From assembly GCA_002104935.1 (NCBI GenBank), contig MCGT01000054.1, positions 43,578 through 107,577 on the forward strand: 64,000 nt of DNA, read 5' to 3'. The notes beneath the pieces were generated by a model. The model saw nothing but the letters and a program-made list of their open reading frames with translations, was not told where the DNA came from and ran no database searches. Position numbers and translations under genes: made by a program. This stretch comes from Hesseltinella vesiculosa. Its lineage: Eukaryota > Mucoromycota > Mucoromycetes > Mucorales > Cunninghamellaceae. Shown piece after piece: positions 28,365-64,000 of this stretch. Numbering within the stretch: the stretch's first letter is position 1; each line of letters starts with the position of its first letter.

Positions 28365-28910
28365 CGGCGCAAAATTGCTCCAAGTCAATCCACCCCAAAT
28401 TTATCAAGCCGGTGCAAAATGATGAGAACTGATCATGATTAAAATTACAAGTCTCTCAGACAGCGGAGGGTTACAATATGCAAAAAGGATGGAAGCCGGT
28501 TGCCATATTGCACAGGCCAGGAATCGAAGGCACTGAACGGCGATTGAATATTGCCCACTCATGTTATTTTTCATTTTGAAAAAAAAAAATGCTAATGCTA
28601 CACAGCATTTTTGATCGATCGGATTGATTCAAAATTCTGTATGAGTGTGCACGTACATGAATAATGACGATACTGAAAAAACCAAGTCGATTGATAGAGA
28701 TGGCCCAGCCAACTTTTGATCAGTTTCGTTTTGACACCTCCGATTCCCCAGCTTACGAAATGCGAAAATCGGCCATTTTCGCCAGGGGACCCCAGGCGAT
28801 TTACTCAAAAATCACAGCGCTAAATTGTTCTAAATAAATTCAACCAGAATTTGCACGCAATTTCAAAATAATGAGAACTGCTCTGTAATTAAAATCACAA
28901 GTCTCAGATT
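28365..28910 (-). repeat. Dispersed repeat copy A, flanked by direct repeats
   Basis: 28571-28810 is the reverse complement of the repeat family seen at 38218, 50412 and 58741 (diagnostic CAGTTTCGTTTTGACACCTC and GGCCATTTTCGCCAGGGGAC). Related direct repeats of about 90 bp lie at 28370-28460 and 28815-28905 (both with ATGAGAACTG and a closing CAAGTCTC). Fragments of the same unit occur at 33720-33830. Non-coding. Confidence 0.6.
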
Positions 28911-33025: not shown

Positions 33026-33554
33026 GGACAGAGTGCGCTCATCCCAAAAAAAAAAAAAAAGGTCTCTAGGACACGCGTGAATACGGCCAAAGTCAGATAA
33101 TGCAAATACGGGGATTGAAACCAAGTCATCCGGGTTCGAAAAAAAACCCATATTTAGACATAGCAAGAAAAGTGACATTTTTATACAAATACTTGCCTTC
33201 AATGGGAATTTAAATAATTGTGAGCGATATATTTTTCTTTATATGGGTGGTGGATTTTTTGAAAAAATACGTGCCTTTTCAAGGCAATTGACCCTTTTAT
33301 GGCACGTATTTTTTCAAAAAATCCACCACCCATATAAAGAAAAATATATCGCTCACAATTATTTAAATTCCCATTGAAGGCAAGTATTTGTATAAAAATG
33401 TCACTTTTCTTGCTATGTCTAAATATGGGTTTTTTTTCGAACCCGGATGACTTGGTTTCAATCCCCGTATTTGCATTATCTGACTTTGGCCGTATTCACG
33501 CGTGTCCTAGAGACCTTTTTTTTTTTTTTTTTTTGGGATGAGCGCACTCTGTCC
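33026..33554. repeat. Nearly perfect 250-bp inverted repeat (foldback) with a 25-bp loop
   Basis: Left arm 33026-33275 and right arm 33301-33554 are reverse complements almost base for base, differing mainly in the length of one homopolymer (about 15 A against 19 T). The spacer 33276-33300 is TTTTCAAGGCAATTGACCC plus six bases. The outer ends are GGACAGAGTGCGCTCATCCC and its complement. There is no coding capacity and no clear target-site duplication. Transcribed, it would fold into a long double-stranded RNA. Confidence 0.92.
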
Positions 33555-36920: not shown

Positions 36921-37411
36921 TTATAACACATCAATTTCAAACTGTAAAGTAAAATGAAAAATGATGCATGCCTGCATTCGTTCTTTTCTGCAGAGAGAAA
37001 AATCGAGTCCGATTCAGCCGGTACTTGAAGCGGCCGATCATGTGCCAATACAGTTAGAAATTGGCATGTATAAGACCATGACCCATGCAGCGTGCGATTC
37101 TGCGCCATGACATATGAAAGTGCAGCACAGGGACAGTGACTCGTTTCCTATAAGTATCACTGCGAAGACCACAGTAACGCCATCGATAAATTTGGGCAGG
37201 TGGGTAGCAGTGCAAGATGTGCGATATCCCGTTAGATCGACAGATCGGAGATGTTCGGCGTGCTGAGGCTCTCTTCAAAATGACCTCTGTCACTTTTAAT
37301 AGGCTGGAAACTAGGCAAAATTGCGACATCACTGGAGATCTACATGCACCGTTACCATTACAGAATTCCCCTACATTTAATATACTGTACACCGTTTCCA
37401 TGAATAAGTGG
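36921..37411. other. Intergenic region
   Basis: No gene recognised. Several in-frame stretches exist on both strands, but none matches a family I know. Confidence 0.35.
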
Positions 37412-38150
37412 CGGCTCTCCTGGAAGACAGGTGGCGGACTTTGGATTTCCGAGTGTCGCACTAGCCATGACAAATTTGGCGCAGGATTTTTTTTTGTTTG
37501 TCGTAGATATTTTTTTTTTCGTGTCGTAGATATTTTTTTTTTCGTGTCGTCATAGACTTGTCGTGCGACAAATTGCTACTTAAATACAACTACATAGGGG
37601 TCCTATGGAAGCAGTCATTGATGCGGGGAGAAGAATTACCGATAAAGCCATGCAGATCCTTGATAGAAACATCATTACACGCCGCTTTGACGATGCGGCC
37701 GACCAGAACTGCTCAATCGGATCGAGCTCAGGGGAATAGGTTGGAAGATGCATGTATCGATACCCACGATTCCTGATGAAGGTATCGATGGCCTTGGATT
37801 GATGACTTGGTGCATTGTCCATCACCAAATAGCAGCCCTCAAATTCTGGATGTTGGTCCATAGCATTCATGACCTCATTCAACAAGGCGATGTAGTGATG
37901 AGTGTTTGTGCCGATGCCAATGTGTTTGTAGGTAACTTGATCAAGTTTGCTTTTTTGTTCCTTGTAGCCGGACTTCTCATGCTGATTTGAACAACACCAG
38001 AAGCACAAGGACCAAGGATCGTGGAAAAAGGCAACTTTCTCAAAATGCGACATTATGCATTTGGTCATCCTGACAAAAAAAAAAAAGTTGCGCCAAATTT
38101 GTCATGGCTTGTGCGACACTCGGAAATCCAAAGTCCAGGAGAGCCGCCGC
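37412..38150 (-). mobile_element. Decayed Tc1/mariner-type element with terminal inverted repeats
   Basis: Ends of roughly 65-75 bp are inverted copies of each other: left GGCGGCTCTCCTGG ... TTTGGATTTCCGAGTGTCGC ... CATGACAAATTTGGCGCA, and right TGCGCCAAATTTGTCATGG ... CCAGGAGAGCCGCC. The left end has a 16-bp insertion relative to the right. Between them lies a broken transposase reading frame on the minus strand. At about 740 bp the element is too short to be autonomous. Confidence 0.8.
37580..38068 (-). pseudogene. DDE transposase fragment (Tc1/mariner type), C-terminal half
   Basis: A 162-codon frame carries GCYLVMDNAPSHQSKAIDTF, the second catalytic Asp in the usual MDNAPSH context, then YMHLPTYSPELDPIEQFWS, the segment holding the third acidic residue. 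The N-terminal helix-turn-helix and the first catalytic Asp region are absent, and the frame runs into unrelated residues after FWS. It is therefore a non-functional remnant inside the element at 37412-38150. Confidence 0.85.
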
Positions 38151-38217: not shown

Positions 38218-38480
38218 TGAGACCCAGCTCTGATTTTTTATCAGATCGCCTTGGGGTTCCCTGGCGAAAATGGCCGATTTTTCATTATTTTTAGCTGAAG
38301 GATCGGAGGTGTCAAAACAAAAGTGATCATAAGACGGCTGGGTGACTTTCACCAATCGACCTGATTTTTTGTATATCACCATTGTTAATACATGTGCGCA
38401 CTCATACAAAATTTTAGTGCGACCTGATAACTCAAAAGTGCTGTGTAACATTTTCTTTTTTTTATTCAAAATGATATATT
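38218..38480 (+). repeat. Dispersed repeat copy B
   Basis: Starts TTTTTATCAGATCGCCTTGG, then CCTGGCGAAAATGGCCGATT, GGAGGTGTCAAAACAAAAGT and CTTTCACCAATCGACCTGAT, and ends with the CTCAAAAGTGCTGTGTAAC and T-rich block. Same family as copies at 28571, 50412, 58741, 59285 and 60363. Non-coding. Confidence 0.75.
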
Positions 38481-50249: not shown

Positions 50250-50717
50250 TGTCGCCTTTTTCAGGACGGATGCGTCGCATTGTAATGAAATGAATGAGAC
50301 TTACACATGGCTTCTGCTTTCCAGTATCAACTGAATGTGAAGGACCACAGTATCACTTTTTCTCTTCGAAAACATGGAGCTCGATAGGATGGATGCCAAG
50401 GAAGAAGATGAAAGCCTGGGAGGTCCCCCAGGGAAAATGGCTGATTTTTCATTTTTTTAGCGGAGGAATCGGAGGTGTCAAAACGAAACGGATGAAAAGT
50501 TGGCTTGGCGACCTTCACCAATCGACCTGGTTTTTTCCCTACCATCATCAATCATGCATTTACGCACCCATACACCATTTTAGGCAGATCGAATGACTCA
50601 AAAGTGATGTGCAGCGTTTGCTTTTTTTTTTTAAAAGAAAATTGGAGCGCCAAATTCAATCTCCGGCATAATCTTGGATTTCTCTGTCCTTTCTTTATTG
50701 TGCAGAGCGTTTTTTTT
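50250..50717 (+). repeat. Dispersed repeat copy C (50412-50640)
   Basis: Contains AGGGAAAATGGCTGATTTTT, CGGAGGTGTCAAAACGAAAC, GACCTTCACCAATCGACCTG and CTCAAAAGTGATGTGCAGCG, in the same order as copies at 38218 and 58741. It lies between the convergently spaced ends of the BTB upstream region and the CTF18 3' end. Non-coding. Confidence 0.7.
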
Positions 50718-58689: not shown

Positions 58690-59505
58690 TTTGCATTGGT
58701 GTGCAAAATTTGAAACAAATTTATTTAGACCAATTTAGCACGGTGGTTTTTGATCAGTTCGCCTGGGGATGCCATGGCGAAAATGGCTGATTTTCATTTT
58801 TTTTAGCTGGAGAAAAGGAGGTGCCAAAACGAAACTGTCGAAAAGTTGGCTGGGTGACCTTCACCAAATGACCTGATTTTTTCAGCAACATCATCAACCG
58901 TGTAATTGCGCATTCTCTCAATATTTAACATTGATCCAATAACTCCAAAGTGCTGTCGAGCGTTTGAGCGTTTGCTACTTTTTTTTTTCAAAATGAAGTT
59001 TGAAAATTAGTGCCATATTCAGCCTCCGCGCAATGCCTTCCATTCCTGACAATGCACGCTGCAAAGTAAGTTCGCTTTGGACAAGTTGGAACGCCATCGT
59101 GAAGTGCGACATCATCAACGCACTGACAGTATATCTTCATCAAATGGGAACTTAGGATTGTTGGTTTGTATTGGAAAACGTTCTACGTTGGGCTTTTGAA
59201 TTGATTTTGGAATTGCCTTGAGTGCACCAGCCTGGATTTGATCACAGTGCGGCGGTTGAATTGTCGCTCATTTATTTTCTTTGTTTTGATAAAAAAAAAA
59301 GCAAACGCTTCAAAGCACTTTTGAGTTATTAGATCGGCGTAAAATAGTGAATGCGGGCGCAAGTGAGTGAATGATGATGGTACTGAAAAATCAGGTCGAT
59401 TGGTGAAAGTCCCCCGGCCAACGTTTCTACAGTTCCGTTTTGGCACCTCCTTTTCTCCAGCTAAAAAAAAATGAAAATCAGCCATTTTCGCCATGGCATC
59501 TCAGA
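58690..59505. mobile_element. Inverted-repeat element made of dispersed repeat copies D and E
   Basis: Copy D (58741-59010, +) and copy E (59285-59505, -) are the same repeat facing inward, separated by about 275 bp of unrelated sequence. The outer ends match as GCCATGGCGAAAATGGCTGA and its complement. The arrangement is that of a non-autonomous element with terminal inverted repeats of about 220 bp. No transposase frame. Confidence 0.7.
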
Positions 59506-60449: not shown

Positions 60450-60753
60450 CAGAATTTTTAGTGATGATTGGCGCGCAGGATAGAAATTTTAGCAGGCAAA
60501 AGAGAACTAATTCACAGGCAAAATAAAATTGATTGCACGCAAACCAGGTCTGATTTGCACGCAAAGCATTTCCAGTGCACGTGAATCTGGTTCTCCAGCC
60601 ACGCAAACCAGACTTCCGACTCCCGCAAACCTGATCTTCTCCACCCGCAAACCAGATCACCGACTCCCGCAAACTTGATTTCGAAGTGCGGGAAGGCTTG
60701 GATAGTAGGAAGGTGTCATCAACGTGAGTAGCCCGCCCAACCTTCTTTTTTGG

Positions 60754-61130
60754 TCGCACTTACGTTCAAGATGTCATCCAGATGGGTTGCCCGCCGCCCA
60801 ACCATTTTTTATTGTCGCACTTACGTTCAAGGTGTCATCCAGGTGAGTTGCCCGCCGCCCAGCCTTTTTTTCTTGTCGCACTTACGTTCAAGATGTCGTC
60901 CAGATGGGTTGCCCGCCGCCCAGCCTTTTTTTCTTGTCGCACTTACGTTCAAGATGTCGTCCAGATGGGTTGCCCGCCGCCCAACCATTTTTCCTTGTCG
61001 CACTTACGTTCAAGATGTCATCCAGGTGAGTTGCCCGCCGCCCAGCCTTTTTTTCTTGTCGCACTCACGTTCAAGGTGTCATCCAAGTGAGTTGCCCGCC
61101 GCCCAGCCTTTTTTTTCTTGTCGCACTTCG
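60754..61130 (+). repeat. 61-bp minisatellite array, left arm
   Basis: Unit starts TCGCACTTACGTTCAAGATG and contains GTTGCCCGCCGCCCAGCC followed by a T-run. Starts at 60754, 60815, 60876, 60937, 60998, 61059 and 61121: six full units and a seventh start, with a period of 61 (last 62). Units differ at a few positions (GGTGAG/GATGGG, CATCC/CGTCC, AACCATT/AGCCTTT). Confidence 0.92.
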
Positions 61131-61254
61131 ACATCTTTTTTTTTTTTTGGATGACTCGGTACGTTCAAAAAAAAAAGATGTCGTCAACTCCCAAGTTTGA
61201 TAATTTTTGAACATTTTTGAACGTACCGAGTCATCCAAAAAAAAAAAAAGATGT

Positions 61255-61480
61255 CGAAGTGCGACAAGAAAAAAAAGGCTGGGCGGCGGGCAACTCACTT
61301 GGATGACACCTTGAACGTGAGTGCGACAAGAAAAAAAGGCTGGGCGGCGGGCAACTCACCTGGATGACATCTTGAACGTAAGTGCGACAAGAAAAAAAGG
61401 CTGGGCGGCGGGCAACTCACCTGGATGACACCTTGAACGTAAGTGCGACAAGAAAAAAAGGTTGGGCGGGCTACTCACGT
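61255..61480 (-). repeat. 61-bp minisatellite array, right arm
   Basis: Inverted counterpart of the left array, with only three full units plus a partial one (starts marked by GTGCGACAAGAAAAAAA). The left arm has six, so the arms have diverged in copy number while staying almost identical in sequence. Confidence 0.9.
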
Positions 61481-61824
61481 TGATGACACCTTCCTACTAT
61501 CCAAGCCTTCCCGCACTTCGAAATCAAGTTTGCGGGAGTCGGTGATCTGGTTTGCGGGTGGAGAAGATCAGGTTTGCGGGAGTCGGAAGTCTGGTTTGCG
61601 TGGCTGGAGAACCAGATTCACGTGCACTGGAAATGCTTTGCGTGCAAATCAGACCTGGTTTGCGTGCAATCAATTTTATTTTGCCTGTGAATTAGTTCTC
61701 TTTTGCCTGCTAAAATTTCTATCCTGCGCGCCAATCATCACTAAAAATTCTGTATACACTTTATTGAAGTAAAAATGTCGCAATTCAAAAGGAAAGATGT
61801 CGCAGAACAAACTAACAAAAATGG

Positions 61825-62060
61825 AATAAAGTTGGGTGAGTTCAGTATGAATGGGCGAATCAGAGAAACCAAATGGACTTACCAAGGATACGAGAAATGA
61901 AAGGGATAACAAGGGTGAACAAGAAAAAAAATGAGAAGATGCTGAGTTATGTGTTTATGAAGTCTTTACCTAGTTTTCATGTCTTGATGACAGAGCCGCC
62001 GCCTCACACTCACAGAGCGTGGTGCATTGTACAAAGTCGTTGGTAAGATTTCAAAGTCGC
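61825..62060 (-). ncRNA. Fanzor 3'-flanking region, candidate guide-RNA/element-end segment
   Basis: Lies directly 3' of the Fanzor stop codon on the Fanzor strand. Its sequence from 61825 to 62010 recurs, degenerate and without Fanzor coding sequence, at 18480-18705. In TnpB and Fanzor loci the guide RNA is made from the 3' end of the gene and the adjoining element end, so conservation of exactly this stretch is suggestive. No structure was computed and the boundary is not defined. Confidence 0.4.
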
Positions 62061-64000
62061 TCATAAGATTTCACAATTGGTCAGCTGTCCATAGCACCGC
62101 AAAGCAATGCACGTACACGAGAGGGAGTCTCGACCAAAGCAGTTTTTTTGTTGTTGGTAAGCTTCACAGGAGGGGTTGGTGCAGCAAGAGGTACCCAGGT
62201 TCAGTTTCGACCTGCCATTAACAGTTTTGCGGGGGTGAATGATGCGGTGGCGGCAGAAAGGGCATGTCATCGACGTACGGGCTTCATTGGTGACAAGGAC
62301 GATGGTATGTTGTCGTGATATGTGTCGGTGCCATTTGCCACCTAGTCGAAAATGACCGCCCACTCTTGAACCAACCCCAGTGCCCGCATGCCCAATGGCT
62401 TGGATGAGGGTCTTGTCATGCTTTCGCTTGGCATCCACTGGGATTTTCGTCTTCACCAGCCATTGTCGCCATTGTAAGTGTCGACGTCGACGCTCGATTT
62501 GCGGATGGTGGTAAAATTCACGGAGTTTTGCTACTTTAGAGCGTGTTTGGGCAAAGCGATCGTTCAGCTGCTGGACAGTCATGGCTGAGGCTAGGGAATT
62601 GTGCGCAAGGATGGCTTCAGCTTGAGATACTTCTTGACCAGCGCCTGTCTTCAAAAAAATTAAAGAGTTAGATAAGCTCAATGTGGCTAGGAGTTGCTTA
62701 TTTCTTACTTTTTCCTTTGCACGTTGTAATCGTCGCTGCAGCTGGAACTGCCCAGTCTTCCACGCAATATCCTTTGCAACCAACTTTGTTGGTTTTGGTA
62801 ACTTGAAGAATTGGCCAGCCTTCAATTTCTCCAACTCCTCGAGAGTGTGCGTCACCGTTGTGGCCATTGTCACAATACCATAGTCGGTACCAGATAGGAT
62901 ACATTCCTTGAGATCAAGGTCAAGCTGCGTATGGCGAGGGTCCTCCTCTACACGAGTGGTCTTGTTAATCTTGGTTGGAGGAATGGGTGGCGAGGGCTTG
63001 GTTTTTTTGGGCTTCTTGGTGTCAGTTGCCTGCAGGAAAAAAAATCGGAACGTGAGCACCTTCCTGCTCCTTTCTAAGTTCATCTGGACATACCTCCTGT
63101 AAGTGATACCGTGTGCGTCGTAAATTGGCAAGACTATCTTGGGCTGCATGCACGTCACGTGTAGCCTTCTGTGCTGCTGCTTTTAGCCGCCGTTCTTCTT
63201 GAACCATCGCAAACTTGGAGGTTTCTGTCTTGCCTACCAAAAGAAATAAATATAAATGATATGGCTGTTTCCCTGAATCATTCCCTATTCTTTTTGAGCA
63301 CCTTTGATTTTGCTTGTGTTGGAGGTTGATGGATGGTTGACGGTGGCTGTTGTCTTCAATGCACAGCGAGTGCTGCGCAGCTGCTTCGTCATGTCTCGCT
63401 TGGCACTGGTGACGCGGTCTCGTTCTTTTTCGGCAAGTGAGATGGCTTCGCCAATGGTGTCGAGGTCATGAGCAAGGACGTTATCGGTTGTCGCGGAAGT
63501 AGCATCGACATCGGCAGTGGGGGCCTTGAGCCGCTTTTCATACATCGATTGCTGACGTGGCTTGATCGTACAACCAAAGAGCAGCGTATCGAAGGCAGGC
63601 GTCACGTCGATTCGGTAGATGAACTCAGTTCCATTCTTCGTGCAAGCCTTTGTGACTTCATCCATGTCGAAAATAGTGGAGAAGACACTGTGCTTGTTTT
63701 GCCGTGCTGTCCGGATGCATGTTACGCCGTTCGAGCGCATATCGACCCTCTTGTGGAGTAATTCGTACAGGGATGGAGCATTCATGGAAAGGGTGTATAG
63801 CGAACCGGCCGACACAACTGGGCAGTACTGCTGACAAAATGTGTGGTACCCGCAAACACGAAGGACTTGGTTGCCGAGCATGATAAGATTGATTTTGCGG
63901 TATTTGAGGCGCCCGGGATGCTTCGGCCCATCATACACCATGTACGGCTTCAGGTGCTGGTAGATTCGCTTCAGCACGTCGAGCTCATGGCCAGTGGGGT
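62061..64000 (-). CDS. Fanzor: eukaryotic TnpB-like RNA-guided nuclease, N-terminus outside the window
   Basis: Exons in window: 64000-63303, 63233-63094, 63029-62709 and 62648-62061 (62708-62649 is an in-frame 60-nt intron with a GTAAGA donor and CTAAC branch). The 5' end is beyond the right edge. RuvC-like nuclease with all three acidic residues in context: Asp in LSGTDYGIVTMA (RuvC-I), Glu in VLVTNEARTSMTCPFC (RuvC-II), Asp in CFGRDSLSCTCIA (RuvC-III). Between the last two is a four-Cys zinc ribbon (CPFC, and CCTNPSC). A Lys/Arg-rich helical region (HLQWRQWLVKTKIPVDAKRK) precedes the GRFRLGG-like segment, as in TnpB. A coiled-coil region (63.1-63.5 kb) lies N-terminal. The frame has no internal stop once introns are removed. 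Confidence 0.85.

Follow-up and report, generated by a model that had tools for sequence, protein, structure and literature searches.

A Fanzor-type nuclease gene, likely the cargo of a multi-copy DNA transposon, at a contig end of Hesseltinella vesiculosa

Fanzors, which are under development as genome editors, correspond in eukaryotes to TnpB and Cas12. The stretch analysed here (the window) comprises 64,000 nucleotides of the soil mould Hesseltinella vesiculosa (Mucorales) and corresponds to C50:43578-107577, the contig C50 being 107,577 bases long. An open gene for a Fanzor-type nuclease lies on the minus strand at the far end of the window, running from 64000 to a TGA at 62063-62061 with three GT..AG introns, all in phase. 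The spliced visible piece (62061-64000) gives 581 C-terminal residues. The contig ends exactly where the window ends, so the gene is truncated by the assembly and not only by the window. Genome searches were made in the H. vesiculosa assembly (27.05 Mb, 85 contigs). The visible gene consists of the following parts.

63302..63998, minus strand: sixth exon of nine (numbering from a sister copy), truncated where the contig stops; from the reading frame and sister-copy comparison
63234..63301, minus strand: intron of 68 nt, GT..AG, phase kept; same intron in six sister copies
63094..63233, minus strand: seventh exon of nine; from the reading frame
63030..63093, minus strand: intron of 64 nt, GT..AG; from the reading frame and sister copies
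62709..63029, minus strand: eighth exon, with RuvC-I GTDYGIV at about 62868-62892; from the frame and motif alignment
62649..62708, minus strand: intron of 60 nt, GT..AG, without in-frame stop; from the reading frame and sister copies
62061..62648, minus strand: last exon, with the RuvC-II Glu codon at 62283-62285, a C4 zinc ribbon, the RuvC-III Asp codon at 62127-62129 and the stop at 62061-62063; from the frame and alignment to SpuFz1

The frame stays open even if the 60-nt intron (62708-62649) is retained. By comparison with a sister copy, the complete protein would have 1117 residues encoded in nine exons. The original prediction, made from the letters of this piece, called the gene intact with its N-terminal third off the window. 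'Intact' stands for the visible half but not beyond it; the N-terminal part does lie off the window, at an assembly break, and is 536 residues (48%), not a third. That this half is unseen weighs against the overall reading proposed below. Contig C18 terminates in the first 1.4 kb of a like element, facing outwards and 99% identical to the copy on C85, which may be the other half of the window copy.

The nuclease and its relatives

The window protein has D328 in GTDYG, E508 in EARTSMTCPFC, an Asp in GRD, and the knuckle CTNPSC. There are 182 residues from D328 to TS, E508 stands six residues ahead of CPFC, CTNPSC follows, and RD comes 11 residues on. This arrangement fits the Fanzor motif of Bao and Jurka 2013, D-X(125,275)-[TS]-[TS]-X-X-C4 zinc finger-X(5,50)-RD (PMC3627910); two distant relatives exceed its 275-residue limit from D to TS (P0009 with 276, P0013 with 303), and P0013 has HD. 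GTDYG is invariant in all nine rows of one family alignment (A7), and the catalytic residues are retained across Mucorales and Mortierella relatives. Family profiles matched SpuFz1 of Spizellomyces punctatus (PDB 8gkh) at E 7.7e-12 (A6), 8.5e-6 (A5) and 1.2e-4 (A2), and the profile comparison pairs the family's Glu and Asp with E541 and D606 of SpuFz1. A predicted model of the relative P0002, not of the window protein itself, has a RuvC/TNB fold, and its first seven fold matches are all Fanzors; fold rows for the long helices (residues 300-414) were disregarded because they matched unrelated coiled coils. Likeness to SpuFz1 extends to the C-x4-C knuckle, CTNPNC there and CTNPSC here.

Several results weigh against this assignment or leave it less sharp. 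The P0002 model is weak overall (mean predicted local distance difference test, pLDDT, 60.4; predicted template modelling score, pTM, 0.35), with low confidence in the N-terminal part, where the REC/WED lobe and REC2 insertion would lie. Searched as a single sequence, the window protein matched neither the PDB nor Pfam PF07282. PF07282 matched 4 of 13 family members, the best of them under the curated cut-off, and NCBIfam gave no TnpB match. The profile check proposed with the original prediction was thus mixed for single sequences and significant for the family profile. Other points of that prediction were borne out: the RuvC Asp, Glu and Asp in order with a zinc ribbon (D328, E508, RD, C4), fungal introns all in phase (68, 64 and 60 nt), catalytic residues that align with a published Fanzor, and a Fanzor/TnpB-type nuclease. 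Profile and fold comparison together settle, at the level of sequence and predicted structure, that the gene encodes a Fanzor-type (eukaryotic TnpB) nuclease.

The family nevertheless departs from textbook Fanzors in its DYG, its length of ~1100 residues and its nine exons. Yoon et al. 2023 describe the Fanzor fingerprint as DPG ('near exclusively') plus Ealt, and that of TnpB as D-Phi-G (PMC10711439). Ealt is present here, the Glu standing six residues ahead of the zinc finger (E-ARTSMT-CPFC), but RuvC-I reads DYG and so departs from the DPG of that fingerprint. DYG occurs in the window protein and in 10 of the 11 other proteins in which the motif was located, with DSG in P0003; this count omits the C85 sister copy and P0001, the gene model of another sister copy (C7), and P0008 is without this region. 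Given the 'near exclusively' of Yoon et al., we file the gene as that of a divergent Fanzor-type nuclease and not as a fingerprint Fanzor. Most Fz1 proteins have 600-700 residues (PMC11423790) and SpuFz1 about 638 (chain minus tag, computed), against 1117 here. Multi-exon Fanzor1 genes have a precedent in Chlamydomonas, with five and ten exons (PMC3627910).

Bacterial TnpB (IS605/IS607) shares the RuvC triad, the zinc ribbon and, in DYG, the D-Phi-G motif, and differs in that here the Glu is at the Ealt position, the N-terminal half is long and there are introns. DYG combined with a Glu six residues before the zinc finger marks, in Yoon et al. (PMC10711439), a clade apart from the DPG Fanzors, which could mean that a eukaryote independently captured a TnpB from the bacterial clade with D-Phi-G plus Ealt and that this is no true Fanzor1. 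We regard such a capture as quite unlikely. In both sequence and fold, Fanzor1 structures were the best matches, above Cas12; SpuFz1 also lacks D-x-G, its metal being coordinated by D383 and N385; and no relative was found in the prokaryote genome collection (genome_contigs) at the sensitivity of that scan. Rfam, NCBIfam and viral_contigs gave no relative.

The full 1117-residue frame with all splice sites is present in three of the six whole copies of the family (C85, C1 and C33), and all eight introns are GT..AG in all six. The ratio of nonsynonymous to synonymous substitution rates (dN/dS) was 0.30 over 1108 codons against a copy about 82% identical (fam1b), with 5 stops in fam1b codons set aside and dS saturated for more distant families. 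Exon indels in the other three whole copies (C2, C34 and C7) count against a functional gene. Together with the stops in the matched fam1b codons, they would fit a transposon family in decay and without cutting activity, its intact frames being recent copies of a dying lineage. This is very unlikely in view of the three complete frames with every splice site, the conservation of catalytic residues in relatives from Mucorales and Mortierella, and a dN/dS of 0.30 despite fam1b itself being decayed. The gene had been predicted to be recent or under selection, and the copies about 99% identical and the dN/dS agree. An annotated protein, P0001, was considered as this gene without its catalytic Asp and rejected; it models the broken-frame copy on C7, where a 40-nt 'intron' (L025 6393-6433) bridges the broken frame, so that the second zinc knuckle is lost along with the RuvC-III Asp.

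The transposon family

Comparison with sister copies placed the gene within a repeated element (family fam1).

61755..64000, minus strand: visible part of a ~4.46-kb Fanzor transposon (fam1); from sister-copy alignment and the shared right end
61755..61760, minus strand: transposon right end AG/TGTA, the flank beyond it being the predicted guide; from right-end comparison

Whole copies on C85, C2, C1 and C33 are pairwise 99.2-99.6% identical over about 4.47 kb, with the similarity ending abruptly, and those on C34 and C7 behave in the same way at 99.1%. Among 14 matches in all, the right ends of seven copies, those of the window and the query included, are 98-100% identical. A genome search with P0002 gave 90 exon matches, which were grouped by hand into about 42 loci, many of them partial or cut by contig ends. 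Other well-populated subfamilies are fam2 (P0004) and fam3 (P0005, P0006). The right end AAGTGTAT was found in 9/9 fam2 copies and in three of four fam3 copies, the fourth having AAGGGTAT; two of the fam3 copies share their flank and so are not independent. The right ends on C27, C29 and C36 read AAGTGTAT or AAGTGTAC. The left end CAGNNNWWCCACTTTCAA has 25 exact genome matches, and the four letters ahead of its CAG were, among the 21 matches listed with them, TTTA in 18 and TTCA, TTAT and TTTG in one each. As to a possible Tc1/mariner-type carrier, which would show a TA target-site duplication and terminal inverted repeats, there is TA at both ends, and AATGTCGCA-like subterminal motifs form weak inverted repeats.

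The left end on C18 is TTTATGC, not TTTACAG; a search for the left ends of C29, fam3, C52m and C32a found none; and no empty site was found. In the open reading frame (ORF) list of the C85 element no second gene and no transposase was recognised, its antisense ORFs (<=147 residues) not having been searched, and no element was identified that combines these ends with a transposase. Movement of the element would need a transposase supplied from elsewhere. On balance we think it likely that a multi-copy DNA transposon carries the gene as its cargo, with no other gene recognised in it, and so encodes a Fanzor-type RNA-guided endonuclease; this reading includes the guide scheme described below. The original prediction, right about the gene, had included neither the multi-copy transposon nor the candidate guide RNA, nor the DYG in place of DPG.

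Many copies in one fungal genome, a single-ORF element and a conserved dinucleotide ahead of the left end (CA there, TT here) are features shared with SpuFz1, whose 30-nt inverted repeats contrast with the degenerate ends here. Bao and Jurka 2013 describe Fanzor1 elements of Mariner type that also have TA at both ends, some of them containing Fanzor1 only, as here. Theirs differ in sharing inverted repeats with confirmed Mariner elements; for the present ends no transposase-bearing counterpart was identified.

Fanzor-type left ends are also found on elements (L042, L043, L044) in which a degenerate Fanzor first exon is followed by a zinc-knuckle protein (P0014-P0016), the N-terminal part of which has 76 genome matches. 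P0014-P0016 gave no Pfam match above cut-off and P0015 no PDB match. These elements may hold an autonomous partner or another nuclease. The spans C35:50705-55187 and C12:458757-466975 are each defined by a match to the left-end pattern together with one to the right-end pattern.

A subtelomeric family was considered and rejected, as seven fam2 contig ends (C6, C19, both C27 ends, C30, C56 and C75) lie inside the element; the many relatives at contig ends therefore reflect assembly breaks in repeats. Contigs C6, C19, C27, C30, C50, C52, C56, C62 and C75 end within Fanzor elements, and these repeats limit the assembly.

A candidate guide-RNA scaffold and the guide position

Two features lie behind the stop codon.

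61962..62035, minus strand: candidate guide-RNA (omegaRNA) scaffold, a 7-bp hairpin and a 4-bp hairpin followed by TGAAAAC; covariance model R1, 83.1 bits, E 1.1e-19 (this sequence is in the 8-member training set)
61964..61969, minus strand: GTAAAG following the scaffold and resembling a 5' splice site (GTAA in 7/8 families); from sequence comparison, with a putative function

The 3' untranslated regions (UTRs) of distant subfamilies have little in common save a stretch about 26-100 nt past the stop. In the window copy the scaffold starts ~25 nt past the stop codon and ends ~220 nt before the element end. RNAalifold, run on eight sequences (few, and related), found the two hairpins of 7 bp and 4 bp unaided. 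In this alignment 93.2% of cells are paired, and 6 of 11 pairs are changed on both sides. None of 500 shuffles reached the pairing percentage, the double-changed-cell count or the covariation score, and 6/500 and 4/500 reached the other two measures; slid scaffold structures dropped to 19-66% paired. With R1 this RNA was recovered at E < 1e-12 from 21 of 28 sources, in every case downstream of a Fanzor gene or what remains of one, 8 of the 21 being training sequences and most others near-identical copies of them; elsewhere nothing scored better than E 0.2. The deleted copy L046, which had no part in the training, scored 75.5 bits.

Parasitella parasitica, the source of PpFz1 (9cf0, 9cf1), is likewise a member of the Mucorales. 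Three Fz1 omegaRNAs have a stem-loop 1 (SL1) of 7 bp, and PpFz1 has an SL2 of 4 bp, directly before the guide (PMC11423790). The two hairpins are called a scaffold because their 7 bp and 4 bp match SL1 and SL2, and by this analogy the covarying RNA behind the stop codon is probably the guide-RNA scaffold. Three points tell against it. Hairpin 2 is broken in C32a and fam2 in this alignment, fam2 forming it in another register. Folded singly, most of the eight families do no better than shuffles; fam2, and weakly C29, fold unusually well, and competing stems exist. Finally, the right end lies 139-219 nt beyond TGA(A/C)AAC in fam1, fam2, fam3 and C29, unlike in SpuFz1 and PpFz1, so that the scaffold is not at the element's very end as in SpuFz1.

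In known Fz1 systems the guide comes after the scaffold, from beyond the right end (PMC10432273), and here a conserved right end is followed by flanks that vary among copies. The guide would thus be the host sequence just past the element's right end (...AAGTGTA/guide). The nuclease would recognise the empty insertion site behind a transposon-adjacent motif (TAM), predicted as TTTA from the TT before the left end plus TA; since no empty site was found, that TT could instead be the element's own. The TAM of PpFz1 is ATN, and PpFz1 has an FRI insertion with cyclophilin binding. Cutting of the empty site after excision, followed by repair from a sister copy, would restore the element. Such restoration via cutting of the excised site has been proposed for bacterial TnpB.

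How the scaffold might be joined to the guide across 139-219 nt can be read in two ways, both with the same nuclease. The guide RNA might be matured by the spliceosome, with the 3' UTR hairpins as exon 1, an intron containing the terminal repeat, and AG/TGTA as the 3' splice site joining the guide. GTAA stands within 10 nt of TGA(A/C)AAC in 7/8 families, and AG directly precedes TG at the right end in all eight families read (fam1, fam1b, fam2, fam3, C29, C52m, C36 and C32b); left ends do not keep this AG. No AG occurs over the 134 nt that precede the terminal AG in fam2 (4/2000 shuffles; CTGAC lies 21 nt before that AG) or over the corresponding 99 nt in C29 (46/2000 shuffles), and SpuFz1 and PpFz1 have one stem loop only between SL1 and the guide (PMC11423790). 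However, AG-free runs are unremarkable in fam1, fam1b, fam3, C52m and C32b, GTAA is missing in C52m, and a second intron-like stretch (GTAAG..TTAG) in fam1-like families complicates the model. We consider splicing rather unlikely.

The other possibility, which we entertain tentatively, is a long unspliced omegaRNA of ~300 nt, in which the part from hairpin 2 to the right end folds into further stems. A transcript of the whole 3' region would include the guide without splicing, and the GtFz1 omegaRNA, at 150 nt, has SL2-SL4 ahead of its guide (PMC11423790). The intervening stretch is, however, pyrimidine-rich (59-67%) and poorly conserved between families, and fam3 loci match the 311-nt right region of fam1 solely over 71 nt at the scaffold.

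Repeats at the predicted guide position and outlook

Directly beyond the right end of the window copy lies a further repeat.

60450..61752, no strand assigned: fold-back element with arms of 486 nt (97% complementary), ending in CAGAATTTTTAGTGATG and flanked on each side by TA; inserted in the TA immediately past the right end of the Fanzor element, as read from the sequence

This 1.3-kb element supplies most of the window copy's predicted guide position and contains 61-bp tandem repeats. Its insertion in the terminal TA itself was rejected, as GTGTA-TA-CAG puts it in the TA directly beyond. At least 46 CAGAATTTTTAGTGATG-like fold-back termini in the genome have TA upstream, and some facing pairs are spaced by 3.5-4 kb, which hints at longer elements sharing these ends. 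One family of miniature inverted-repeat transposable elements (MITEs), with at least 49 genome matches, adjoins the Fanzor right end in C34 and C29; another copy lies at window 37395-38136, with ~110-bp inverted repeats.

If the flank is the guide, the window, C34 and C29 copies carry guides matching transposon ends. Transposons at the guide position may reflect chance from shared TA targets. A bolder proposal is a Fanzor lineage with a TnpB-like DYG and a split guide RNA, in which a scaffold in the 3' UTR of the nuclease mRNA would be spliced at the end AG to an insertion-site guide, and transposons inserted at that end would reprogram the guide against transposons; we think this unlikely. 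Among the open-licence papers listed there was no account of a spliced Fanzor guide RNA and none linking Fanzor to Hesseltinella or Mucoromycota, though published Fanzor lists may include this protein.

Elsewhere, the window contains a perfect 230-bp palindrome with a 25-nt spacer (33046-33530) and a dispersed repeat family in both orientations, 64-91% alike (28575-28794, 38248-38470, 50414-50636, 58760-58982 and 59291-59503).

The database entries of the family that were examined are named hypothetical or uncharacterised. The family lies outside the DPG fingerprint, is bigger than most Fanzor1, and includes several copies that are nearly identical and have moved recently; the frames of some of them are intact. 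Comparison among these gives a candidate scaffold, a TAM prediction and one predicted guide per copy, which make the proposed native function, transposon retention, and the maturation of the guide RNA testable together.
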